In this document: positions 4,688-20,074 of the stretch, in pieces | Numbering within the stretch: position 1 is the stretch's first letter | Layout of the letters: every line of letters begins with the position of its first letter | Source of the DNA: Rheinheimera riviphila | GTDB taxonomy: Bacteria > Pseudomonadota > Gammaproteobacteria > Enterobacterales > Alteromonadaceae | Assembly: GCF_004005945.1 (NCBI RefSeq) | Contig: NZ_SACS01000003.1 | Span: 204,790 to 268,789, forward strand | Length of the DNA: 64,000 nt | Direction of reading: 5' to 3' | Program-made: the position numbers and the translations under genes | Notes under the pieces: generated by a model | The model's database searches: none | Told to the model about the DNA's origin: nothing | The model's input: the letters and a program-made list of their open reading frames with translations, nothing else

Positions 4688-5740
4688 TTACTCGCTTTTT
4701 GTAACTTCCTGAAAAATAGCTACTTCTGCAACCTGACCAGCACTGCGTTTGGCGCGGTACATGCCTTCGGTATTAAATGGCCAACTGATGTTGCCTTGTT
4801 TATCCATCACAATCACGCCGCCGGTACCACCGACTTTTTTCAGTTCTTGTTGAATCACCTGATCCGCAGCTTCCGCTGCACTGATGCCGCCATATTTCAC
4901 CCGGGCACAAATATCAGCGGCAACGCGATAGCGGATAAAAAACTCACCATGCCCGGTGGCTGACACCGCACAGCTACTGTTGTCAGCAAAATTGCCGGCA
5001 CCAATAATAGGTGCATCACCAATCCGGCCATATCGCTTGGCAGTCATGCCGCCGGTGGAGGTTGCGGCCGCCAGATTGCCTTGTTTATCCAGCGCCACAG
5101 CGCCGACAGTGCCCATATTCCACTCTGGTTGCCAGTTTGGCGATAACCGGAGTGACGCCTGATGCGGTTGTTTTTTCATTGATTCCAGCGCTTTTTGCAA
5201 TGCTTTCAACCGAAATTCGGTGTCAAAATAGCTATTCGCGACCAATTCCAGCTGCTGCTCTTTAGCAAATTGTTCAGCGCCTTTACCTGCCAGCATCACA
5301 TGCTCTGATTTTTCCATTACCGCCCGCGCCAGCAACACCGGGTTTTTCACATTGGTGACACCAGCAACAGCCCCAGCTTCCAGCGTGTCGCCGCGCATAA
5401 TAGACGCATCCAGTTCATGACCACCATCATAGGTATAGACTGCGCCTTTACCGGCATTGAACAGCGGCGAATCTTCCAGCACCAATACTGCTTTGGTAAT
5501 GGCGTCCAGACTACTGCCACCTTGTTCCAGCACCACATAACCAGCATCAACCGCCGCTTTTAGCGTACGTTCATAATCAGCCTGCTGCGCCGGGGTCATA
5601 CTGGCTTTGTTGATGGTGCCGGCGCCGCCGTGAATAACAATGGCAAAGTCGGTTTTGGCGACAGCTGGCATCGCGAGCCCGGCGACAAGCAGCCCTAATG
5701 TCAGTGGTTTAAAGTGGGAGGCTGAAAATAATCTGCGCAT
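4688..5740 (-). CDS. Periplasmic isoaspartyl peptidase / L-asparaginase (Ntn-hydrolase)
   Basis: A 350-residue plant-type asparaginase/isoaspartyl dipeptidase (IaaA-like). It has a signal peptide (hydrophobic residues 13-28, cleavage after AVA), so it works in the periplasm, removing iso-Asp dipeptides and Asn. Family signs are the HGGAG motif at 37-41, the NAGKGAVYT/DASIM segment at 95-114, and the autocleavage site MGTVGAV, where Thr211 becomes the N-terminal nucleophile. GGMTAKRYGR and GTGGVIVMD follow in the beta subunit. Length fits the family plus a leader. The gene stands alone, with 155 bp between it and the endonuclease gene upstream. Confidence 0.92.
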   Translation of the reverse strand: MRRLFSASHFKPLTLGLLVAGLAMPAVAKTDFAIVIHGGAGTINKASMTPAQQADYERTLKAAVDAGYVVLEQGGSSLDAITKAVLVLEDSPLFNAGKGAVYTYDGGHELDASIMRGDTLEAGAVAGVTNVKNPVLLARAVMEKSEHVMLAGKGAEQFAKEQQLELVANSYFDTEFRLKALQKALESMKKQPHQASLRLSPNWQPEWNMGTVGAVALDKQGNLAAATSTGGMTAKRYGRIGDAPIIGAGNFADNSSCAVSATGHGEFFIRYRVAADICARVKYGGISAAEAADQVIQQELKKVGGTGGVIVMDKQGNISWPFNTEGMYRAKRSAGQVAEVAIFQEVTKSE

Positions 5741-5895
5741 AACTTTCCTCGGTAGTACAAGTCGTACAAGAAGCGATGGATCCGGATTTGACTAGCAATA
5801 TCGCGAAAAGCTATCTCATAGCAATGAAAATTCGTTGGCTTGCGGTTGAAAGCACAAAGTGGGCGTTAAATGTATGGCTAAACCACTGGCGGCAA

Positions 5896-6837
5896 TTAAT
5901 CGCAGTTTTTGGCTTTGTGAAAGCCCGCATCCAGCGCCGCCGCCTCATCGCTAAACCAACGGCGGTTTTTCTCGCCGATCTGACTAAAACCCGGGCAATG
6001 TGCCAGGTGATACAGCTTGCTGTTTTTGTTGCCTAATACCTGGGTTGCACCTGTAACTGCCGGTGTTGATTGCTTAGTCACCTTCGCTGCCGTTGGCGGC
6101 GTCGCACTTCTGCCATAACCCGTTGGCAGATAACCCAAATACCACTCGCGGCTACCGGTGACAAAATAATTCGGCTGTCCCATTTGCTGGGCAATCCGCT
6201 GGTGCAGTTGCAGTTCACGCTCATCAACCGGATCGGCCTGGTGCCATTTTAAAAACAGCTGTTGCTGTGCATCCTCAAGCTGTAGCGCGTATTTATCCGC
6301 CATATAAAAATAGATGCGCGCGATATCACCGCGAATTTCGGCTCTGGGTTCGGCTAGTTTACGTTTAAAATCAATCCGGATTGGACAAGCACCATGCTGA
6401 GCACGCGCACCGGGTAACTCAGCAAAAGCAAAATTGGCGCGGTCGCCATTGACTTCACCAATGGCTGGTTTGAGGTTAAACAAATCAGCTTCCATGCGCC
6501 GAAATTCGTCGTCATTACGGCCACATTGCTCGCGGCCACCTTGTTGCCAGCAGCTTAAATTGCGACCAAATTGATGCGCCGGCACCACATGTTCCCATTC
6601 TATCCGCTGAGCCCGCGGGCCATTTTTGCGCACCTGATAACCACAGGCTTTTAAATCCGGAATACCTTTGCCACCTTGCCAACGCAGTGGACAAGCGCAA
6701 TAAAAGGTTTGGTTTTCATCACTATAAATCCGCTGCGCCAAACGTTTCGCTTCAGAAAAATCATCGGGGGCTGCCAGCAGAGCAAAGCTCATCAGCTGTA
6801 ATAAAACGGCGTAAACAACCGGCCATTGGTACTTCAT
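5896..6837 (-). CDS. endA: Exported endonuclease I (EndA/Vvn type) with C-terminal Cys/His module
   Basis: A non-specific DNase/RNase of the EndA/Vvn/Dns family, exported by a signal peptide (about residues 5-23). The catalytic HNH-like signature WEHVVPAH and the later DLFNLKPAIGEVNGDRAN metal-binding segment are intact. Paired cysteines around them fit the disulfide-stabilised fold. After the nuclease domain and a Thr/Pro linker, the last 40 or so residues form an extra module with YHLAHCPGF and AGFHKAKNC, resembling the small zinc-binding unit of Ada-type proteins. Start: ATG at 6837 has a GAGTG site nine bases upstream and gives 313 residues. An upstream start at 6861 would only lengthen the leader. 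It is divergent from sbcB. Confidence 0.9.
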   Translation of the reverse strand: MKYQWPVVYAVLLQLMSFALLAAPDDFSEAKRLAQRIYSDENQTFYCACPLRWQGGKGIPDLKACGYQVRKNGPRAQRIEWEHVVPAHQFGRNLSCWQQGGREQCGRNDDEFRRMEADLFNLKPAIGEVNGDRANFAFAELPGARAQHGACPIRIDFKRKLAEPRAEIRGDIARIYFYMADKYALQLEDAQQQLFLKWHQADPVDERELQLHQRIAQQMGQPNYFVTGSREWYLGYLPTGYGRSATPPTAAKVTKQSTPAVTGATQVLGNKNSKLYHLAHCPGFSQIGEKNRRWFSDEAAALDAGFHKAKNCD

Positions 6838-7036
6838 TGTTTGATCACTCTTGTTTGGCAACAGACATCAGTGCACTGCGACTTCCGGTCGAATCTAAAT
6901 TAAGGTGGGACGCATTCAGGCGGAACACGCGCATTATTACACAGCATTTCAATTGATTAAATTAGCTGGCACTGATTTGCCAGAATTCGACTTTGCCTTA
7001 TACTGCGGCCAATCATTTCTGCTGGCGGACGTTATT

Positions 7037-8461
7037 TTGGCGGCAACTTTTTACTTTCACGATTATGAAACCTGGGGCGCGGATCCGAAAAAAGATCGGC
7101 CAGCACAATTTGCCGGATTACGTACCGATCTCGCGTTAAACCCGCTTGGCGAAGCGCAGATGTGGTACTGCCAACTGGCTGCGGATTATTTACCGCACCC
7201 GGTCGCAGCGTTAATCACCGGTTTAACGCCCCAGTTATGTAATCAAAAAGGCTTGCCGGAAGTGCAGTTTATGCAGCGGATTTTGCAGGAATTCAGTACC
7301 GCTGAAACCTGTGTGGTCGGTTATAACAATCTGCGATTTGATGACGAAATCACCCGTTATAGTTTGTGGCGCAATTTCCTTGACCCTTATGGTCGTGAAT
7401 GGCAACAAGGCAACAGTCGCTGGGACCTTATCGATGTGGTGCGTGCTTGTTATGCGCTGCGTCCGGAAGGCATTCAATGGCCACAACACGACAATGGCAA
7501 CCCGAGTTTTCGGCTCGAAGATTTAACCAAAGCCAACGGTCTCGAGCACCAGCATGCCCACGATGCACGCTCAGATGTGTACGCCACTATCGGTATCGCC
7601 AAATTAGTGCAACAAGCGCAACCTAAGTTGTTTCAGTACTTATTCGAAAATCGTAAAAAACAACAAGTGCAGGCGCTGATTGACGTGGCCGGCATGACGC
7701 CGCTGGTGCATGTGTCGTCAAAATTCCCGGCAAGCCAGGGTTGTTGTAGCTGGATAGTGCCTTTGGCGTTTCATCCGACCAATAAAAACGCTGTGATCTG
7801 TTTTAATTTGCAGTCGGATCCAAGACTGCTCGCCGATCTAACTATCGAGCAGCTCAATGAACGGCTTTATCGCAAAACTGCCGATCTAGCCGACGATGAA
7901 CCCAGACCTGGCTTAAAACTAGTGCATCTGAATAAATGTCCGGTGCTGGCCAATGCCAAAACGCTGAGCGAAGCGCGCGCGGTGGAACTTGGAATTGACC
8001 GCAAGGCGTGCCTGGCCAATCTGGAATGGCTGAAACAAAACCGGCAGTTGCAGCAAAAAGTGGTCGAGTTGTATCAGCATGCGGCTGAATTTAAAGCCGA
8101 AACCAACCCGGATTATATGCTGTATCAAGGCTTTACTTCGGATAGCGATAAACAACAGATGCAGCGGCTGCACCAATTAGCGCCAGAAGCGCTGCAAGGC
8201 AACGCCATTCAGTTTCAGGATGACCGGTTAAATCAATTGTTGTTCCGGTTTCGCGCCAGAAACTATCCACACACGCTGACCTTTGACGAAATGGAAAAAT
8301 GGCGACGTTATTGTCATGATAAATTGACACTGGGGTTGGATCAGCCGGCATTAACTTTTGAAGATTTTACCCTGGCGCTGGAAAGTGCCGCCGAAAGTCA
8401 GCAAAACGACCCGAAAAAAATGCAAATTTTGCAAGCGTTATATCGATTTGTAAGCGCTTAA
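7037..8461 (+). CDS. sbcB: Exodeoxyribonuclease I
   Basis: A 3'-5' single-strand DNA exonuclease used in mismatch repair and recombination. The N-terminus carries the DEDD motif Exo I in FYFHDYETWG, then Exo II in VVGYNNLRFDDEITRY and Exo III in HDARSDVYATIGIAK. The SH3-like and helical C-terminal region follows. The reading frame is open back to 6905 (GTG), but homologues begin just before FYxHDYET. A TTG at 7037, preceded by GGCGGA, gives 474 residues, against 475 in E. coli, so I take that start. It is divergent from the endonuclease gene. Confidence 0.92.
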   Translation: MAATFYFHDYETWGADPKKDRPAQFAGLRTDLALNPLGEAQMWYCQLAADYLPHPVAALITGLTPQLCNQKGLPEVQFMQRILQEFSTAETCVVGYNNLRFDDEITRYSLWRNFLDPYGREWQQGNSRWDLIDVVRACYALRPEGIQWPQHDNGNPSFRLEDLTKANGLEHQHAHDARSDVYATIGIAKLVQQAQPKLFQYLFENRKKQQVQALIDVAGMTPLVHVSSKFPASQGCCSWIVPLAFHPTNKNAVICFNLQSDPRLLADLTIEQLNERLYRKTADLADDEPRPGLKLVHLNKCPVLANAKTLSEARAVELGIDRKACLANLEWLKQNRQLQQKVVELYQHAAEFKAETNPDYMLYQGFTSDSDKQQMQRLHQLAPEALQGNAIQFQDDRLNQLLFRFRARNYPHTLTFDEMEKWRRYCHDKLTLGLDQPALTFEDFTLALESAAESQQNDPKKMQILQALYRFVSA

Positions 8462-8686: not shown

Positions 8687-9484
8687 ATGAACCAACATCA
8701 CGATACACAAACCACAGATGTAACTGCGACCCCTGCAGTTCTGCCACAGGAACAGGCTCCTGGGTTGTCACGTCGTAAGTTTTTAACCCGCGCTGGTGTG
8801 GGTTCTTTACCCGTTATCATGTCGATTAAAAGTGGTAGTGCCTGGGGCTGTGTCGACTTAAAATGTACACCTGGTGAAACCAGCCTGAGTAACTCGGGTT
8901 CTGCGGTTGCATCAGCAACATCGACCAGCGATGGCAAACCAGCAGCTTATAAAAAGCCAAAATGGTCGACTATTAAAATCATCAAAGATGTATTCAGTGT
9001 TGATTTTAATAGCTATCTATTAGAAACCTACCAATACACGCTCTACACCAAATCTGGCAGCAAATACACTGAGATCTCCAAAAGCAACTGTAAAAGCTGG
9101 TGGACGACTGTTAAAGCTTCGACTTGCTATACCAAAAAGAGCAGCTCAAATTATCCAAGATATACCGGCACTAAACGTGAACCTGGTATGTTTGGCACCA
9201 AAGTGTTGATCAACAGCACTAAATTCTCTGAAATTTTTGGTACCGGCACTACGGCAAATTTCCTTACCTGCCTGAGCATGAATGACTCGCTGGAACAGTA
9301 TTTGGTTGCAGCCTTTATCGGGGCGGTTTGGGAACGTCACACTGAATACCGTAACCAATACGGTAGCCGTGAATTGTGTTACCCGGCGCCACAAGATTTG
9401 ATCGATGCTTATCAGGATGCATTAAATCGTGATAACGGCTTGGAAGACTTACGGACTTTATTAAAGTTCTATACCATCGGTTGA
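8687..9484 (+). CDS. Exported protein of unknown function with twin-arginine-like signal (cassette gene 1)
   Basis: I do not recognise a catalytic family. The 265-residue product has a polar 27-residue N-tail, then SRRKFLTRAG (RR at 29-30) and a short hydrophobic stretch ending in SAWG near 54. This looks like a Tat signal, though its hydrophobic core is weak. The mature part starts with a CVDLKC pair and a Ser/Thr/Gly-rich stretch. It then has aromatic- and Cys-containing blocks (for example NCKSWWTTVKASTCY) and a C-terminal segment with ELCYPAPQDLIDAYQDAL. ATG at 8687 has a GAGGT site. It leads the PqqD-like, HPr-kinase-like and nucleotidyltransferase genes, so it may be their exported substrate (inference). 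Confidence 0.75.
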   Translation: MNQHHDTQTTDVTATPAVLPQEQAPGLSRRKFLTRAGVGSLPVIMSIKSGSAWGCVDLKCTPGETSLSNSGSAVASATSTSDGKPAAYKKPKWSTIKIIKDVFSVDFNSYLLETYQYTLYTKSGSKYTEISKSNCKSWWTTVKASTCYTKKSSSNYPRYTGTKREPGMFGTKVLINSTKFSEIFGTGTTANFLTCLSMNDSLEQYLVAAFIGAVWERHTEYRNQYGSRELCYPAPQDLIDAYQDALNRDNGLEDLRTLLKFYTIG

Positions 9485-9491
9485 TGATAGC

Positions 9492-9677
9492 TTGCCCAAA
9501 CCTCAAAATTCTACCCCGGACTATGCCAACAGCATACTCCGGGGTTCTTCTTCTGCGACATTAACACTGGCCACCGACGACAACTCAGGTGTGGTCTGTT
9601 TTGATGTATTTACGCAAGATACATGGATCGAACTGCCCGAAACTGCTAACGTAACCACTTCTTCAGTGGAAAATTGA
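9492..9677 (+). CDS. Short PqqD-like protein of an HPr-rel-A cassette (cassette gene 2)
   Basis: A 61-residue product starting at a TTG seven bases after the stop of gene 1. No other start exists in this frame upstream, and no strong Shine-Dalgarno is seen, so it is probably translated by coupling. The segment GVVCFDVFTQDTWIEL matches the beta-hairpin of PqqD-related proteins of HPr-rel-A clusters (usually 'VVFDxxSGDTHLL'). The helical winged-helix half expected after it is missing: the frame stops after SSVEN. It could be a minimal adaptor or a decayed gene. The identification rests on a short motif and on position next to the HPr-kinase-like gene. Confidence 0.6.
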   Translation: MPKPQNSTPDYANSILRGSSSATLTLATDDNSGVVCFDVFTQDTWIELPETANVTTSSVEN

Positions 9678-9683
9678 TCATCA

Positions 9684-10538
9684 ATGACAACAAGTTTTGT
9701 GCTGGCCTCTGCCCCTTTTAATTTTCAGGTCAATACCAGTGGCTCCGTGTTGTATGATCAATTGCAACAACTCTATCCAGCGTCAGTACTGCAAAACTCT
9801 CCCTCCACTGACATTATTGATTTTCAAATTGATTTCAAAAAAAACTGGTGGTCTTTCAGCCAAAGCTACGCCTTTAAATTGGGTCAGCATCATTTCCGGA
9901 TGACCGCCAAACCCCAGTTACTCAGTGTGTTTGAATGGGGTTTAAACTGGGCAGTTTCTTCTTATCAAAACCGCTACCTGTGCATTCACGCTGCGGTGCT
10001 GGAAAAAAACGGCATCAGTCTGATTTTGCCAGCGCCACCAGGCTCTGGCAAAAGTACGTTATGCGCATTATTGATGTTGTCTGGCTGGCGTTTGTTGTCT
10101 GATGAACATTGCTTGATTGACCCACAAACCGGGATGATTTTGCCTTTTGTGCGGCCAATCAGTTTAAAAAACCGCTCAATTGCCGTGCTCAATCAACGTT
10201 ATGCCAAAAACATCGTTCAATGTGTGGTGCCGGATACCTTTAAAGGCACTATCGGTTATTTGCCGCCAACTGCCGAAAGCTGGCAGTTGATGCACCAGCC
10301 GGTACAACCGGCCTATGTGATTTTCCCCAAATATAACGCTCATGTTGCGGCAACTGAATTCTCCGGTATTGAACAAAGTCAGTTGTTTATGCAACTGGCG
10401 GTGAATTGTTTTAATTACACCGTGTTGGCCGAAGTGGGTTTTGAAACCCTGGGACGTTTAGTAAAACAAGTCGTTGGCATTCGGTTGGAATATGCCAATA
10501 CCGATGAGGCTTTGCAGCTGATTGCGGAGCTTGACTGA
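9684..10538 (+). CDS. HPr kinase-related P-loop protein (HprK-rel-A) (cassette gene 3)
   Basis: A 284-residue protein with the kinase core of HPr serine kinase/phosphorylase but without its N-terminal regulatory domain. The segment CIHAAVLEKNG precedes the P-loop at 117-125 (APPGSGKST). A Walker-B-like LLSDEHCLID stretch follows at about 137-146, and VRPISLKN at about 155. These are the hallmarks of the HprK-rel-A family. No canonical HPr substrate gene lies nearby, and the phosphoryl acceptor is unknown. The start lies six bases after the PqqD-like stop. Its stop codon TGA overlaps the next ATG (ATGA at 10538), implying translational coupling. Confidence 0.85.
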   Translation: MTTSFVLASAPFNFQVNTSGSVLYDQLQQLYPASVLQNSPSTDIIDFQIDFKKNWWSFSQSYAFKLGQHHFRMTAKPQLLSVFEWGLNWAVSSYQNRYLCIHAAVLEKNGISLILPAPPGSGKSTLCALLMLSGWRLLSDEHCLIDPQTGMILPFVRPISLKNRSIAVLNQRYAKNIVQCVVPDTFKGTIGYLPPTAESWQLMHQPVQPAYVIFPKYNAHVAATEFSGIEQSQLFMQLAVNCFNYTVLAEVGFETLGRLVKQVVGIRLEYANTDEALQLIAELD

Positions 10539-11650
10539 TGACGCCGGTCTGCCTGCAACTCCTGCAAAACCCGGCGAAATTTATTGAACACGCCAATGCG
10601 CAAATCTGGACTGATTTGATTCATCAGGCGCGGGAACAAGCGCTGCTCGGCAGTTGTTATTTCCTGCTACAGGATGCCGGTTTATATGATGCGATCCCCG
10701 AAAAAGTCAAAACCCATCTGTATTCCGGTTATATCTACGCCCAGAAGCAAAAAATCAGCTTAATCAAAGAAATGCTAAAGCTGGAACCGTTTTTCAGTGA
10801 CGCGCCTTATCCCTGTGTCTTGCTCAAAGGCTGCGCTTACCGGCTGACTGAATTGGCGATGGCTCGGGGCCGGGTGTTTTCTGATATTGATATTCTGGTG
10901 CCACAACAGCAGTTCCCCGATGCACTGCAACGATTAAACGAAGCCGGTTTTATCGAATTTGGCATGTCCGATTATGACCGGCGTTATTATTTACGCTGGT
11001 CGCATCAGCATCCGCCATTGATCCATTATCTGCGTGGTGTATCCATCGATTTGCACCATCATATTTATCCGGTATCGTCCCAGGAAAATATCTTAATCGA
11101 GCCGATGCTGCGCCAATCGATCCCGCTGGCCGGTTCGTCCTTTGCCGTGCCGACCAAAGCACTGATGTTTGTGCATGCTTGTGTCCATTTGTTTTATCAG
11201 GACGAAACTCACAAGCTGGTCAAAGACTTATGGGATTTATACCAGCTATATCTGGATGCTATTGCTGAAGGTGAAGCGAACATTGTGCAGGCCGCCACCG
11301 ATTTGAACGCGCAAGCTGCGGTTTATTATGCCTTTGATGTGCTTGAGTGGTTGTTTCAAATTAATGTCTCGGCGCTGGCCCTCACCCAGTTAAAACCTTT
11401 TGCCAACCACTCGCAGCGCCGGTCCATGCGCTGGTTATTAACACAATTGTTCAACCCACAAAGTAGCTGGCATCGGCTGGCGCATATTTGGTGGGCCATC
11501 CGCGGCCATTTGCTGAAAATGGGGCCAATGACACTGCTTTATCACAGTGTTGCCAAGTCGGTGGAACAATACCGTGAACGGCGTATTCATACCGCGCAGC
11601 AGCAACAACAAGATGCGCTGACCAAACCTAAAGATGCCGGTTTTCAGTAA
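10538..11650 (+). CDS. Nucleotidyltransferase-fold protein of an HPr-rel-A cassette (cassette gene 4)
   Basis: A 370-residue soluble protein of the NTP_transf_5 type of nucleotidyltransferase-like proteins. It has VLLKGCAY at 94-101, then GRVFSDIDILV, where Asp116-x-Asp118 would bind metal. A conserved DLHHHI block and the FVHACVHLFYQDE and VKDLWDLYQL segments follow and complete the family pattern. These proteins recur beside HprK-rel-A kinases and in exopolysaccharide or peptide-modification clusters; their substrate is not known. It overlaps the kinase gene by one base and is the last gene before the TPP riboswitch, so the cassette ends here. Confidence 0.8.
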   Translation: MTPVCLQLLQNPAKFIEHANAQIWTDLIHQAREQALLGSCYFLLQDAGLYDAIPEKVKTHLYSGYIYAQKQKISLIKEMLKLEPFFSDAPYPCVLLKGCAYRLTELAMARGRVFSDIDILVPQQQFPDALQRLNEAGFIEFGMSDYDRRYYLRWSHQHPPLIHYLRGVSIDLHHHIYPVSSQENILIEPMLRQSIPLAGSSFAVPTKALMFVHACVHLFYQDETHKLVKDLWDLYQLYLDAIAEGEANIVQAATDLNAQAAVYYAFDVLEWLFQINVSALALTQLKPFANHSQRRSMRWLLTQLFNPQSSWHRLAHIWWAIRGHLLKMGPMTLLYHSVAKSVEQYRERRIHTAQQQQQDALTKPKDAGFQ

Positions 11651-11703
11651 ACTTAGCTGCATTTTTACTTGCGTTTAAACTTAATCTTTCCCTATACTCG
11701 GCG

Positions 11704-11792
11704 CTCTTGTCGGAGTGCCCATTTGGGCTGAGACCGCGTTACGCGGGATCCGTTGAACCTGATCAGGTTAGAACCTGCGAAGGGAACAAGGG
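11704..11792 (+). ncRNA. TPP riboswitch (THI element)
   Basis: The conserved THI-box core is present: GGGCTGAGA, then an ACGCGGGATCC-type P3, then GAACCTGATCAGGTTAGAAC and CGAAGGGAACAAG. The closing P1 helix pairs CTTGT (11706-11710) with ACAAG (11786-11790). It lies about 200 bases before thiC and should lower thi expression when thiamin diphosphate is bound. A small GGGT/ACCC hairpin followed by TTTTT (11790-11812) and a GGCCAT/ATGGCC stem (11822-11838) are candidate expression-platform elements. The rest of the 11651-11993 gap shows nothing else I can name. Confidence 0.97.
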
Positions 11793-11969
11793 TAATGTAC
11801 CCGGAGTTTTTCCCATTTTTAGGCCATAATTTATGGCCATTGTTGAGAAAGGCCCACTAGTCAAACCAGATGTTAGTTGCACCTAGCGCGACTAAGTTAT
11901 CTGAACGGCTATCCTAACGGCACACCGCCGTCATTACTCCAACATACTCCAGGCAAGCAACTTTGTTAA

Positions 11970-15422
<3,453 letters not shown>

Positions 15423-15433
<11 letters not shown>

Positions 15434-16247
15434 GCTGACTACCTCAGCGAAATTGATCACCTCAGCCAATCACAGTTCACCAGCAGCACTGCAATCACCA
15501 CTACCCGATCAGCAGTTTTTGTATTACAGCCGGCAATTGTTGTTGCCGGACTGGTCGGAGCAACGCCAGTTACAACTGCAGCAAAAAAAAGTGCTGATTG
15601 TCGGCATGGGTGGGCTCGGCTGCCCGGCGGCGACTTATCTGGCTGGTGCCGGTGTTGGCTGGCTGTTACTGGCTGACGGCGACAAAGTTGAGCTGAGTAA
15701 CTTACCGCGGCAGACTTTGTTCCGGGTAAGCGATATCGGTTTAAACAAAGCCGAAGCCGCTGCCGCCACCTTGCAACAACTGAACCCGTTTATCCGGATT
15801 GATGCCTTATCGCAAATGTTGGATGAAGCCGAATTAGTCAGACGGATCGCCTGGGCTGATTTGGTGCTCGATTGCAGCGACAACCTTGCCACTAAACTCG
15901 CCATCAACCGGATATGCCAGCAGCAACAACGCTGCTGGCTTGGCGCCTCGGCCAGTGGCTATCAGGGTTACAGCTGGTTGATTAATCCGGCCAGTGGCGG
16001 TTGCCTGGAGTGCCTTGGGCATCAGCAACCACTGCTACCAGGCGGCTGTCTGCAACAAGGCGTCTACACGCCGCTCGTCGGCCAGCTTGGCCTGCAACTG
16101 GCCAGTATGGCGCTACAACAGCTGGCAAACGGCCGTCGGCGGCGCAGTTTTGTACAGATTTACCAACATCATCAACAACAATTCAGCCAGTGCCAGTTGC
16201 TGGCCGATCCCCAGTGCAAATGTTGTGGAGTGACCGCAGATGTCTGA
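15423..16247 (+). CDS. thiF: ThiS adenylyltransferase ThiF
   Basis: An E1-like enzyme that adenylates the C-terminal glycine of ThiS so sulfur can be loaded. The nucleotide-binding GMGGLGCPAATYLAGAG segment, ADGDKVELSNLPRQ, and zinc-binding cysteines (GGCLECL and the terminal PQCKCC) are present. The frame is open to 15216, but that part lies inside thiE. The ATG at 15423 gives 274 residues beginning MATKL, with the conserved YYSRQLLLPDW about 40 residues later, as in the family. It overlaps thiD-thiE by 11 bases and thiS by 8. Confidence 0.95.
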
Positions 16248-16449
16248 AAAAATTGATATTTATTTAAACGGTGATCGGCTGCAAGTTGCAGTGGGCATTG
16301 ATTTGCAACAGTTGCAGCAACAATTTGCAGCTGATCAACAGGTTGCGATCGCGCTGAACACCGAAATAATGCCACGCCGCTGTTGGCCTGAACGTGTGCT
16401 ACAGGCGCGGGATCAGGTGTTGATATTTAACCTGGTGGCTGGAGGTTAG
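16240..16449 (+). CDS. thiS: Sulfur carrier protein ThiS
   Basis: A 69-residue ubiquitin-fold sulfur carrier ending in the required Gly-Gly (FNLVAGG), the site adenylated by ThiF and turned into a thiocarboxylate for ThiG. The start overlaps the thiF stop by eight bases. The stop is followed after one base by thiG, and GGAGG within its last codons serves as the thiG ribosome-binding site. Confidence 0.95.
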
Positions 16450-16450
16450 T

Positions 16451-17218
16451 ATGTTCACAATTGCCGAAACTCCGTTACCCCGCCTGCTGCTTGGCAGTGG
16501 TAAATTCGCAAGTCCAGCGCTGATGCTGGATGCAGTCCGTGCCAGTGGTACCGGTTTGGTCACTGTGGCGCTCAAACGAATTAAACCCGGTCAGCCGAGC
16601 CTGGATTTAATTTCACCACTGCGACAAGCCGGGGTGAACATTTTGCCCAACACTTCAGGCGCTGTTGACGCCAAAGAGGCCATTTTTGCCGCTGAGCTGG
16701 CGCGTGAACTATTACAAACCAACTGGGTGAAACTGGAAATTCATCCAGATGCACGTTTTCTGATGCCGGATCCGGAACAAACTTTAATTGCCGCACGGCA
16801 ATTGGTGAAACTGGGTTTTGTGGTGCTGCCTTATTGCAGCGCCGACCCGATCCTCTGTCTGCGCTTACAAGAAGCTGGCTGCGCTGCTGTGATGCCACTC
16901 GGTTCAGCCATTGGCTCGAATCAAGGGCTGCAAAATAAAGCCATGCTGGAAATTATTATTGAGCAAGCCAGGGTACCGGTGATTGTCGACGCCGGTCTTG
17001 GTCAGCCTAGTCATGCGTGCGCCGCGCTGGAAATGGGCGCGGCGGCGGTGCTGGTCAATACCGCGATAGCAACTGCTGCCGATCCGGTGCAGGCAGCGAC
17101 CGGCTTTCGACTGGCGGTAGAGGCCGGTATGGCTGCGCGGGCCGCCCGTTGTGCGCCACCAAGCCTGCATGCCAACGCCAGCAGTCCGATTGAGTCTTTA
17201 CTCACGTTTTTAAGTTAA
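16451..17218 (+). CDS. thiG: Thiazole synthase ThiG
   Basis: Forms the thiazole ring from DXP, ThiS thiocarboxylate and dehydroglycine. The 255-residue TIM barrel has [11 protein letters not shown] near the start, the lysine of [10 protein letters not shown] expected to form the Schiff base, [11 protein letters not shown], and the phosphate-binding [14 protein letters not shown] and [13 protein letters not shown] segments. It sits immediately after thiS. The partner ThiH lies 13 bases downstream. Confidence 0.97.
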
Positions 17219-17231
17219 AGAGGGTTTTAAC

Positions 17232-18350
17232 ATGCGCAGCTTTAGCGATGTCCTAGCCCAAACCGATTGGGTCGCCTTGCAACTGGCCACCTTTGATACC
17301 GCGGCAGTTGAGCGCGCGTTAACGGCGAGTAGACTGAACCTGACTGATTTTCAGGCACTGCTAAGCCCCGCCGCTTTGCCGAGGCTACCGCAACTGCTGG
17401 AAAAAGCCAGCTTGCTAACAACCCAGCAATTTGGCGCGGCCAGGCAATTGTTTGCGCCTTTATATCTATCCAATCTTTGCGCCAACGAATGTACTTATTG
17501 TGGCTTTTCAATGAGTCAGGCAATTAAACGCAAGGTGCTGACCGATACCGAGCTCATCGAAGAAGCCAATGCCGTCAAAGCTTTAGGCCATGATCAGTTG
17601 TTACTGGTGGCCGGCGAGCACGAGCGTAAAGTCGGTATGGCCTATTTCCGCCAGCAAATCCCGCTGCTTAAACCACTGTTCAGCCGCTTGATGCTGGAAG
17701 TGCAGCCGCTGGCGATGGATGACTATTGCGAATTAAAACAACTGGGCATTGATACCGTGCTGGTATATCAGGAAACCTATCAAGCTCAGGCTTACGCCAA
17801 ATACCATCTCAAAGGTAAGAAGATGGATATGATCTGGCGTTTAGATTGCCCGGATCGGATTGGCGAAGCTGGCGTCGACAAAATCGGCCTTGGCATTTTG
17901 CTTGGGCTCGCCGACTGGCGGTTGGACGCGGTGCTACTGGCGACACACCTGCGGTATCTGCAACAACAATTCCCTTATTGCCAATTTAGTATCGCATTGC
18001 CCCGCTTACGGCCTTGCAGTGGCGGTATCGAGAGTTCGTATCCGGTCAGCGACCGCGAACTGGTGCAGCTGTATTGTGCCTTCCGGCTGTTGGCACCGGA
18101 AATTGATTTAACCCTGTCGACTCGAGAAAGCCCACAGCTTCGGGATTTATTGTTGCCGCTGATGATCACCAGTCTCAGCGCCGGTTCGAAAACGCAGCCT
18201 GGTGGCTATCAGGTGGCGCCCCAAAGTTTGCAGCAATTTAGTATTGATGATGATCGCAGTGCCAAACTGATGGCGCAGCGCCTGACCGAGCTAGGTCTGC
18301 AACCGGTGTGGACCAACTGGCATCCGGCGTTTGGCCGGGGTGAACTCTAA
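17232..18350 (+). CDS. thiH: 2-iminoacetate synthase ThiH
   Basis: A radical SAM lyase that cleaves tyrosine to dehydroglycine and p-cresol for thiazole synthesis. The 372 residues contain the CxxxCxxC cluster motif at Cys83, Cys87 and Cys90 (NLCANECTYCGFS). LEVQPL and the GIGILLGL-like barrel segment follow. Having thiH and no thiO here indicates the tyrosine route to dehydroglycine. It is the last gene of the riboswitch-led operon. The 180-bp gap after it contains a GGTAGCC/GGCTACC inverted repeat (18473-18513) ending in TTTT that may terminate the operon. Confidence 0.96.
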   Translation: MRSFSDVLAQTDWVALQLATFDTAAVERALTASRLNLTDFQALLSPAALPRLPQLLEKASLLTTQQFGAARQLFAPLYLSNLCANECTYCGFSMSQAIKRKVLTDTELIEEANAVKALGHDQLLLVAGEHERKVGMAYFRQQIPLLKPLFSRLMLEVQPLAMDDYCELKQLGIDTVLVYQETYQAQAYAKYHLKGKKMDMIWRLDCPDRIGEAGVDKIGLGILLGLADWRLDAVLLATHLRYLQQQFPYCQFSIALPRLRPCSGGIESSYPVSDRELVQLYCAFRLLAPEIDLTLSTRESPQLRDLLLPLMITSLSAGSKTQPGGYQVAPQSLQQFSIDDDRSAKLMAQRLTELGLQPVWTNWHPAFGRGEL

Positions 18351-18532: not shown

Positions 18533-20074
18533 TTGAAACAATTCATAAATCGCTACCGGACCTGGCTGCTTGGCCTGATGTTGACCTTGTCGTTGTCAGC
18601 CTGCGTGGCGCCGATGCTATTGTTGTCACCACAAGGCCAGCTGATGTGGGCATTGCTGAAGCCCTTGGTTGGTTTAGATCCAAAAACCGCGAATTTATTT
18701 GAACAACCTTTACTGAAAGGCCGGATGCAGGCGCTACTCGGTGACAACTACAGTACCGCTGTTTCCTTGCTGAATACCGCCAATAAAATTCAGCAGGAAG
18801 GCCCGCTATTTTATCTGGTGTCGAACTATACGCCGGTGCCGCAACTGGCGGAAAAAGCCGGTTTTGTCTGGAATGCCGAAACTAACCAAATGGCGGTATT
18901 ACTGGTCAGCGGCGGTGCACCTTTGGTGTTTGCCGAGCAGCTCAACCAACAAGCCGCCAAAGTGATCCCAAGCTGGCCAGCCGAACTGGTCGACTACACC
19001 GATCCGGTGAAACTGAAACAGATGGCACTGACCAAAGCGGCTACCACTGCGGGTAGCAGCCTGGGTTTATCCGAAAATCAAACCGCGCTGGTGACCACAG
19101 CTGCCACCGGCGGTGATGTCAAAGCGCTAGCCGTCACTCAGGCCACGGATGCGGCAACCAACAAAGCATCCAGCACTTTGGGGCTTTCAAAAAATCAAAC
19201 AGCTTTGGTCAAAACAGCTGCCACCGGCGGTGATGTCAAAGCGCTGGCAGTGACTCAGGCGACAGACGCTGCAACCGACAAAGCGTCAAGTACTTTGGGG
19301 CTTTCCGAAAATCAAACGGCTTTGGTCAAAACAGCTGCCACCGGCGGTGATGTCAAAGCGCTGGCGGTGACTCAGGCGACCGATGCTGCGACGGAAAAAG
19401 CCACCGCAGTCGCCACCGAAAAAGCGACCGGCGATCTTGGCCTTACCGCAGAACAAGCGGACGCCGCAGCGCAGCTTGCCAAAGGCGCCAGCGTCACAGA
19501 GTTGTCCGAAAAATATCAGCAACAAAGCGCGGCAGAGCAAATAAAGGAGCAAAAACAACAGTTTGTTACGCAAGCGACCGATCCAATTCTCAATCAGATC
19601 AATACCCAAAATGAGGCTGAAGTAAAACAGGAACTCCAGCACAAAACCGAGCCAACAGCACAGCAAGCGGTAGTTACAGCAACGGCTGAAACAGCGCAAG
19701 GTATGACCACACCACTACCACCGGTTTTGGCAACCGCAAAACAATCAGTTGAAGAATTAACCGCACAATTAACTGCCGCCACCGAGCAAGAAATGGCGGC
19801 GGAAATGGCATTGGAACAAGCCGAAGCGAAAATTGCTGCCGCAGAAGCACAGTTGTCACGGGCAACAACCGGCGCGATGCAAGATGCAGCGAACTCAGCT
19901 TTGGTAAAAGCACAAACCGAGCAACAAGCCGCCAGCGAAGCCTTATTGCAAGCCCAGCAGAAAGTACAACAACTGCAGCAACTCATCAAAGCCAGCGCGC
20001 CACCAGCCGCAAAATCTGCGCCAGAGGCAGCTACAAATGCAGCGCCAAAAGCTGAAGAAAAACCAATGCAATAA
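18533..20074 (+). CDS. Lipoprotein with three 39-residue tandem repeats and coiled-coil tail (unknown function)
   Basis: I do not recognise a named family. The 513-residue product starts at a TTG and has a lipoprotein signal peptide with lipobox LSAC (Cys24). Residues 25-170 look like a globular domain (GPLFYLVSNYTPVPQLAEKAGFVW, VLLVSGGAPLVF). Residues 173-289 are three near-identical 39-residue repeats around GLSENQTALVKTAATGGDVKALA. The remainder is Ala/Gln/Glu-rich and strongly heptad-like (about 400-490), predicted coiled coil, with a low-complexity end. The mix suggests a surface or periplasmic structural protein. A hairpin sits just upstream of the start. Confidence 0.75.
   Translation: MKQFINRYRTWLLGLMLTLSLSACVAPMLLLSPQGQLMWALLKPLVGLDPKTANLFEQPLLKGRMQALLGDNYSTAVSLLNTANKIQQEGPLFYLVSNYTPVPQLAEKAGFVWNAETNQMAVLLVSGGAPLVFAEQLNQQAAKVIPSWPAELVDYTDPVKLKQMALTKAATTAGSSLGLSENQTALVTTAATGGDVKALAVTQATDAATNKASSTLGLSKNQTALVKTAATGGDVKALAVTQATDAATDKASSTLGLSENQTALVKTAATGGDVKALAVTQATDAATEKATAVATEKATGDLGLTAEQADAAAQLAKGASVTELSEKYQQQSAAEQIKEQKQQFVTQATDPILNQINTQNEAEVKQELQHKTEPTAQQAVVTATAETAQGMTTPLPPVLATAKQSVEELTAQLTAATEQEMAAEMALEQAEAKIAAAEAQLSRATTGAMQDAANSALVKAQTEQQAASEALLQAQQKVQQLQQLIKASAPPAAKSAPEAATNAAPKAEEKPMQ
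19049..19399 (+). repeat. Three in-frame 117-bp tandem repeats
   Basis: Copies run 19049-19165, 19166-19282 and 19283-19399, each exactly 117 bp (39 codons). The core CTGCCACCGGCGGTGATGTC recurs at 19101, 19218 and 19335. Copies 2 and 3 are nearly identical and copy 1 is more diverged. They lie within the lipoprotein gene. Confidence 0.95.

Follow-up and report, generated by a model that had tools for sequence, protein, structure and literature searches.

The window analysed here is a stretch of 64,000 nucleotides from Rheinheimera riviphila (contig NZ_SACS01000003.1, positions 204,790 to 268,789). It contains a cassette of four genes, encoding a protein with a twin-arginine (RR) signal, a small protein in the position of a PqqD, a kinase related to HPr kinase/phosphorylase (HprK) and a nucleotidyltransferase of the NTP_transf_5 family. 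To judge from the sequences compared, this appears to be a widespread, undescribed cassette, in which one dedicated protein probably has its serines decorated by the kinase and a second enzyme prior to export in folded form. The four open reading frames (ORFs) lie head to tail on the + strand, as the original prediction had described them, at 8687-9484, 9492-9677, 9684-10538 and 10538-11650. One base (10538) is common to the stop codon of the kinase and the start of NTP_transf_5. In window coordinates, the features are:

8687..9484, + strand: RR protein, 265 amino acids (aa), with a twin-arginine signal, a serine-rich low-confidence segment and a folded C-terminal part; proposed substrate.
8687..8848, + strand: signal resembling those of twin-arginine translocation (Tat), residues 1-54, with SRRKFL at 28-33 and ending in ...KSGSAWG.
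8888..8914, + strand: serine triad S68-x3-S72-x3-S76, the proposed site of modification (positions read by eye).
9492..9677, + strand: short PqqD-position ORF, 61 aa, with an assumed TTG start; proposed substrate-binding adaptor in shortened form.
9684..10538, + strand: HprK-related kinase A, 284 aa; TIGR04352 at 269.3 bits.
10041..10058, + strand: Walker A motif GSGKST of the kinase; residue conservation assessed among 85 family loci.
10538..11650, + strand: NTP_transf_5 nucleotidyltransferase, 370 aa; PF14907 at 133 bits.
10883..10891, + strand: Asp-x-Asp of the nucleotidyltransferase, D116 and D118; residue conservation assessed among 85 family loci.
6905-8461: exonuclease I (ExoI) ORF, 700 bits to its NCBIfam model.

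The association of the kinase with the RR protein is far beyond chance. Among 196 genomes of the window's GTDB family, 99 have a TIGR04352 match at E <= 0.001, which passes the cut-off of the model in 84 and stays below it in 15. The loci compared in the family are the window cassette and 84 others, 85 in all. NTP_transf_5 lies directly 3′ of the kinase in 85/85, and a Tat-like RR protein is found just upstream of the kinase in 84/85. At the exception, locus L123, the kinase frame is broken, and pieces of an RR protein lie beside it in that genome. A profile of the 84 RR proteins matches in 88 of the 196 genomes: 84 have both a kinase over the cut-off and an RR match, none has the kinase only, four have the RR match only and 108 have neither (Fisher p = 3e-51, a value inflated by shared ancestry among the genomes). 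In two of the RR-only genomes (G135, G169) the match covers the signal alone, in G156 (L285) it falls at a contig edge, and the remnant in G181 (L284) consists of fragments of the RR protein and of NTP_transf_5 together with a protease of the type described below. The original prediction had named an RR protein found mostly apart from the other three genes as grounds for rejection; instead, the RR protein occurs almost only with the kinase. Since the kinase had served to find the loci behind the profile, free-standing distant relatives would escape it.

Over 84 loci, the pairwise distances between kinases are correlated with those between RR proteins (0.78, against a maximum of 0.08 in 999 permutations). 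Two different cassette lineages are present within the window's genus; the closest kinases to that of G083, a genome of that genus, belong to another lineage, whose RR proteins its own also resembles. Decayed-looking cassettes (L123 in G035, L284 in G181) have several members broken or missing together, and the cassette is carried by plasmids at L286 (Vibrio alfacsensis pVa1) and L287 (Sphingomonas). As read from these sequence comparisons, the RR protein, the PqqD-position protein, the kinase and NTP_transf_5 are one co-inherited unit.

The same arrangement is found across the class. In a sample of 369 genomes, 41 pass the kinase cut-off, including the window's own and G024, which had already been counted; 39 class loci were fetched beyond these two. 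The RR protein adjoins the kinase in 38/39, in 37 of them upstream by profile, some weakly, and at L165 added by eye after the profile had missed it. Locus L185 is cut off, because its stretch starts ~450 bases before the kinase frame. NTP_transf_5 is present in 38/39 class loci, on the same strand in 32 and upstream on the opposite strand in six. A loss of NTP_transf_5 in those six was considered and rejected, since the gene sits on the opposite strand. No NTP_transf_5 was found at L187, where the stretch ends near the kinase. A further set of named loci comprises the best 80 of a larger number (Rheinheimera, Arsukibacterium, Massilia, Methylomonas, Thiobacillus and others) and overlaps the family and class sets, four of its RR proteins repeating earlier ones. 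In this set the RR protein is found at 76/80 loci, with little sequence upstream of the kinase at L199, L246 and L271, and NTP_transf_5 at 79/80, the stretch of L233 ending near the kinase. Profile matches of the RR protein are weak (16-35 bits) at L167, L178, L180, L186, L189, L191-L193 and a few named loci, and RR positions in the class loci were transferred by hand between the profile search and the later analysis.

Both enzymes belong to recognised families, in agreement with their earlier description as an HPr-kinase-like P-loop protein and an Asp-x-Asp nucleotidyltransferase. The kinase is HprK_rel_A (TIGR04352, cut-off 200 bits) and does not fall into an unrelated P-loop family; the last gene is NTP_transf_5 (PF14907, cut-off 31.2 bits). 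Within the family, kinase residues G120, G122, K123, S124 and T125 are present in 85/85 loci, as are H102, D140 and E141, and S121 is present in 74/85. In the nucleotidyltransferase, K97, G98, D118 and D171 are present in 85/85 and D116 in 84/85. These motif residues are presumably the catalytic (active-site) ones. The ratio of nonsynonymous to synonymous substitution rates (dN/dS) against locus L041 is 0.03 for the kinase and 0.03 for the nucleotidyltransferase. The likeness to HprK itself lies in the P-loop kinase core, and HprK chains head a weak list of PDB profile matches (E 0.0067). However, the similarity is limited to ~60 residues around the P-loop, other P-loop proteins follow from E 0.014, and nothing at the cassette points to HPr as a partner (the genome was not searched for HPr).

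The RR protein of the window carries a twin-arginine motif followed by a hydrophobic stretch and an A/G end, and this pattern is conserved in its relatives. Among the 84 family RR proteins the first Arg is kept in 83 (Lys in one), the second Arg and the A/G at the end of the signal in all 84, and a K/R near the presumed cleavage site in 67. We take these to be features of a Tat signal, and TatC is present in the window genome. No family was matched by the window RR protein beyond TAT signals, so that its earlier description as an RR-signal protein without a recognised family still applies. Its dN/dS is ~0.05 against L041, the nearest relative. In the predicted structure, the confident C-terminal part is mostly helical and reaches a predicted local distance difference test (pLDDT) score of ~95 in a second model; no PDB match to this part was found at E <= 0.001.

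The serine triad lies in the low-confidence N-terminal part of that structure. An S-x3-S-x3-S pattern occurs within the 40 residues after the signal in 73/84 family RR proteins, against a mean of 6.8 and a maximum of 15 in 1000 shuffles; for this count a fallback rule placed the signal end in 16/84, miscutting at least L093. It is rare further along the protein, at 4/84, 0/84 and 3/67 in later 40-residue stretches, and the three alignment columns hold Ser in 82, 77 and 72 of the 84. In a wider region of 62 residues the triad is present in 74/84 family, 22/38 class and 45/76 named RR proteins. The corresponding means in 1000 shuffles are 10.3, 2.4 and 7.1 (maxima 21, 7 and 15), and the next 62 residues contain the pattern in 3/84, 1/30 and 5/74. 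All these counts are of unpicked proteins, that is the 84 family RR proteins and the unselected family, class and named sets. Alignment A5 was hand-picked (113 RR proteins: 47/84 family, 22/38 class and 44/75 named); its columns conserved at >=90%, namely M1, both Arg, three Ser four apart and one Asn, are biased because most RR proteins lacking the triad were omitted. In the window the triad was assigned to S68, S72 and S76 by eye; the conserved columns of the MAFFT alignment fall two residues away from it there.

The second ORF of the cassette occupies the PqqD position and keeps the strand part of the pattern, lacking the C-terminal half of its homologues. Searched against the PqqD models of NCBIfam and Pfam (including TIGR04353 and PF05402), it gives no match. 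A profile of 73 homologues from outside its own clade matches it weakly (E = 4e-5, nine sequences searched), with a profile-profile probability of only 54%. It looks like a shortened PqqD-type form found in the window's clade. Against L041 its dN/dS is ~0.57, calculated from few sites, as compared with 0.03-0.05 for the other three genes. A small ORF was picked in this position by script in 83/85 family loci, none being found at L088 and L118. The pick at L123 looks spurious and was dropped, leaving 82 homologues in alignment A2; TIGR04353 is matched by 15 of these (E <= 0.01), and some other picks are doubtful (L067). Scripted rules based on regular expressions determined which PqqD-position and RR ORFs, and which start codons, were taken. 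The label of a short PqqD-like protein, given originally to the window ORF, therefore fits the relatives, but the window ORF itself matches no PqqD model.

Related kinases are found beside shorter partners. A class-wide search for the RR protein matched 58/369 genomes, and some of its matches are small ORFs close to kinases that score under the TIGR04352 cut-off. Of twelve stretches fetched, ten served the question of short RR sequences. At six loci (L274, L275, L277-L280) a sub-cut-off HprK-like kinase lies beside an RR-leader peptide or short protein, and four of these kinases score 49 to 85 bits when rescored with TIGR04352. Further peptides occur at L276 and L281-L283. The ten stretches yield 14 RR sequences, whose open frames span 63 to 153 aa and whose leader resembles SRRxFLKKxAYVAPAxLTLxAxPxxA. 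Gly-Ser just after the leader was seen by eye in 14/14, a biased sample because the profile that found them covers the Gly-Ser region. Both PqqD ORFs tested (L275, L277) match PF05402. Both nucleotidyltransferases tested (L277, L280) match PF14907, and their genes are not on the kinase strand but on the other one. When the ORFs of the six loci were read by eye, with no model search, none was recognised as a lasso cyclase. The short RR-leader peptides with Gly-Ser are a possible new peptide family. At L280 a gene on the - strand (5198-6085), within the cluster of kinase, PqqD and NTP_transf_5, appears by eye to be glycosyltransferase-like; it has no match in Pfam or NCBIfam at E <= 0.01.

Part of the cassette is already named as the HPr-rel-A system (TIGR04352 HprK_rel_A, TIGR04353 PqqD_rel_X). 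The window kinase scores over the curated cut-off of the first model; some PqqD-position homologues match the second, but the window ORF does not. The NCBIfam names cover two of the four cassette proteins, and the RR protein is not among them. Of two annotated records inspected, that of Sphingomonas carries both HPr-rel-A product names and that of Vibrio alfacsensis pVa1 the kinase name; the RR protein is a 'hypothetical protein' in both. No published function or substrate for the HPr-rel-A cassette or the RR partner was found in the open-licence literature. The SynChlorMet cassette (ScmC, ScmD) bears a weak likeness: its model matches the kinase at 28 bits (cut-off 125), and one of the 82 PqqD-position homologues gives a weak match.

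The closest parallel is with phosphorylated and phosphoglycosylated lasso peptides (the paeninodin kinase, ThcoK, pseudomycoidin PsmK/PsmN). In reviews of lasso peptides (PMC8498205, PMC9266682), the HPr-kinase homologues of lasso-peptide clusters are reported to phosphorylate the C-terminal Ser of the precursors, and PsmN, the pseudomycoidin nucleotidyltransferase, is connected with the presence of one or two hexoses on phosphoserine. Nucleotidylation followed by a host glycosyltransferase is an alternative route left possible in PMC9266682. An HPr-kinase homologue, a PqqD-like B1 protein and a nucleotidyltransferase are shared with the systems as described there. Unlike them, the cassette has as its proposed substrate a Tat-type protein of ~200-270 aa, with candidate serines that are internal and not C-terminal. 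No lasso cyclase or B2 protease is seen beside the window cassette, in the interval from ExoI to the thiamine pyrophosphate (TPP) riboswitch, the remaining genome not having been searched. The kind of chemistry is known already, and the exported-protein partner with its triad appears to be new.

A trypsin-like protease with conserved His, Asp and Ser (such as L098:8047-8856 and L058:7882-8631) is often encoded near the cassette, in several orientations. Three examples were tested, and these match PF13365. Counted at one match per genome, it is present in 148/196 family genomes. It lies in the same fetched stretch as 56/85 family, 16/39 class and 22/80 named cassettes, the family stretches being mostly ~12.8 kb. 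The window cassette has no adjacent protease, the gene lying elsewhere in the window genome. The protease was rejected as an obligate fifth member, as it is common without the kinase and sits away from the window cassette.

It is rather likely that the cassette is a dedicated pathway of protein modification and export, comprising PqqD-assisted phosphorylation of serine, capping by the nucleotidyltransferase and export by Tat. The same kinds of enzyme as in the lasso clusters, a PqqD-position adaptor and a partner with conserved serines make phosphorylation and then capping before export the best reading. In the cytoplasm, the PqqD-like adaptor would bind the RR leader, and the kinase would then phosphorylate one or more serines of the triad. 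The nucleotidyltransferase would add a nucleotide or sugar to the phosphoserine as a cap, after which the RR protein, modified and folded, would leave via Tat. Where it is encoded nearby, which is not the case in the window, the trypsin-like protease may trim the RR protein after export. From the comparisons above we infer the identity of the substrate (the RR protein), the order of the steps, the chemical cap, the export by Tat and the part played by the protease. The original prediction had already suggested phosphorylation or nucleotidylation, ahead of export, of a peptide or of the exported partner. The serine triad, the co-inheritance and the kinases beside short RR-leader peptides now speak for the second of these, yet it is still something that we infer. 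Put forward more tentatively, as plausible, is a wider proposal: an undescribed class of modification before export, with kinase and nucleotidyltransferase producing a phosphorylated, phosphoglycosylated or nucleotidylated Ser on a dedicated Tat substrate at S-x3-S-x3-S, spread across Gamma- and Betaproteobacteria and having a sister branch that acts on short RR-leader peptides.

Several observations weigh against modification of the RR protein before its export. The TAT domain model TIGR01409 scores 12.9 bits on the window RR protein, below its cut-off of 16.7. The triad counts exceed the shuffles in all three sets and yet are incomplete; the triad is therefore strongly enriched in the family, class and named sets but not universal. 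A subtype of RR protein with a different mature region lacks it (such as L165, L191, L192 and Sphingomonas L287). The PqqD-position ORF of the window is short and fast-evolving. At L231 a PqqD-like ORF, the kinase and NTP_transf_5 occur with no adjacent RR gene. The protease is present in 82/84 kinase genomes, and also in 66/112 genomes without the kinase. Lastly, co-occurrence cannot tell which protein serves as substrate, and shared ancestry is not taken into account in its statistics.

Four other explanations were weighed. Tat commonly exports folded, cofactor-bearing proteins, and the C-terminal domain of the RR protein is confidently folded in the second model. The kinase and nucleotidyltransferase may accordingly build or activate a small nucleotide-containing cofactor, which the PqqD-like protein hands over, the RR protein being the exported holoprotein. 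This is unlikely: the best conserved residues of the mature protein are the serines of the low-confidence N-terminal segment, followed by Asn and a few others, and no cofactor-binding fold or family was matched among the models searched, itself weak evidence.

Slightly less probable is an RR protein that is itself active, once exported, as an effector or adhesin, while the target of the kinase and nucleotidyltransferase lies elsewhere, for instance in a glycan or lipid of the envelope, and a shared envelope role links the genes. NTP_transf_5 is uncharacterised by name, and the association with a protease suggests envelope biology. A PqqD-type adaptor, however, implies a peptide substrate, and the short peptides found with relatives of the kinase have a leader of the same type.

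The protease also bears on the view that the RR protein is the precursor of a ribosomally synthesized and post-translationally modified peptide (RiPP). A trypsin-like or other protease would cut the RR protein after export and free the triad-bearing N-terminal peptide as a signal or antimicrobial. The sharing of three enzyme types with lasso clusters, the short RR peptides of related loci and the frequency of the protease in the fetched stretches agree with this. It is nonetheless doubtful, as RR proteins retain a folded C-terminal part, the RR gene of the window is under purifying selection, and the window cassette has neither an adjoining lasso cyclase that could be seen nor an adjacent protease. 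An ordinary operon, in which the four genes are co-transcribed by history and share no function, would suit their adjacency in nearly all lineages seen, so that part of the co-occurrence is shared descent, but it is very improbable given that NTP_transf_5 stays at the cassette even when inverted, that two cassette lineages exist inside the window's genus and that no genome has the kinase over its cut-off without an RR match.

The window cassette is flanked by the exonuclease I gene on one side and a TPP riboswitch (RF00059, 81.5 bits, at 11701-11802) on the other. Between the two, the ORFs of >=80 aa are those of the RR protein, the kinase and NTP_transf_5 on the + strand and one antisense ORF. 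No exopolysaccharide gene was recognised adjoining the cassette when the ORF list was read by eye, a systematic comparison with exopolysaccharide clusters not having been made. A run of ORFs resembling thiamine biosynthesis genes, named by eye, lies 3′ of the riboswitch at 11994-18350. An ORF with long imperfect internal repeats, also seen by eye, occupies 18533-20074.

With the RR protein recognised as an almost constant fourth member that carries a recurrent triad, an orphan kinase cassette becomes directly testable. If dedicated modification of the RR protein is true, enzymes known from small peptide natural products would also decorate whole exported proteins before their export by Tat.

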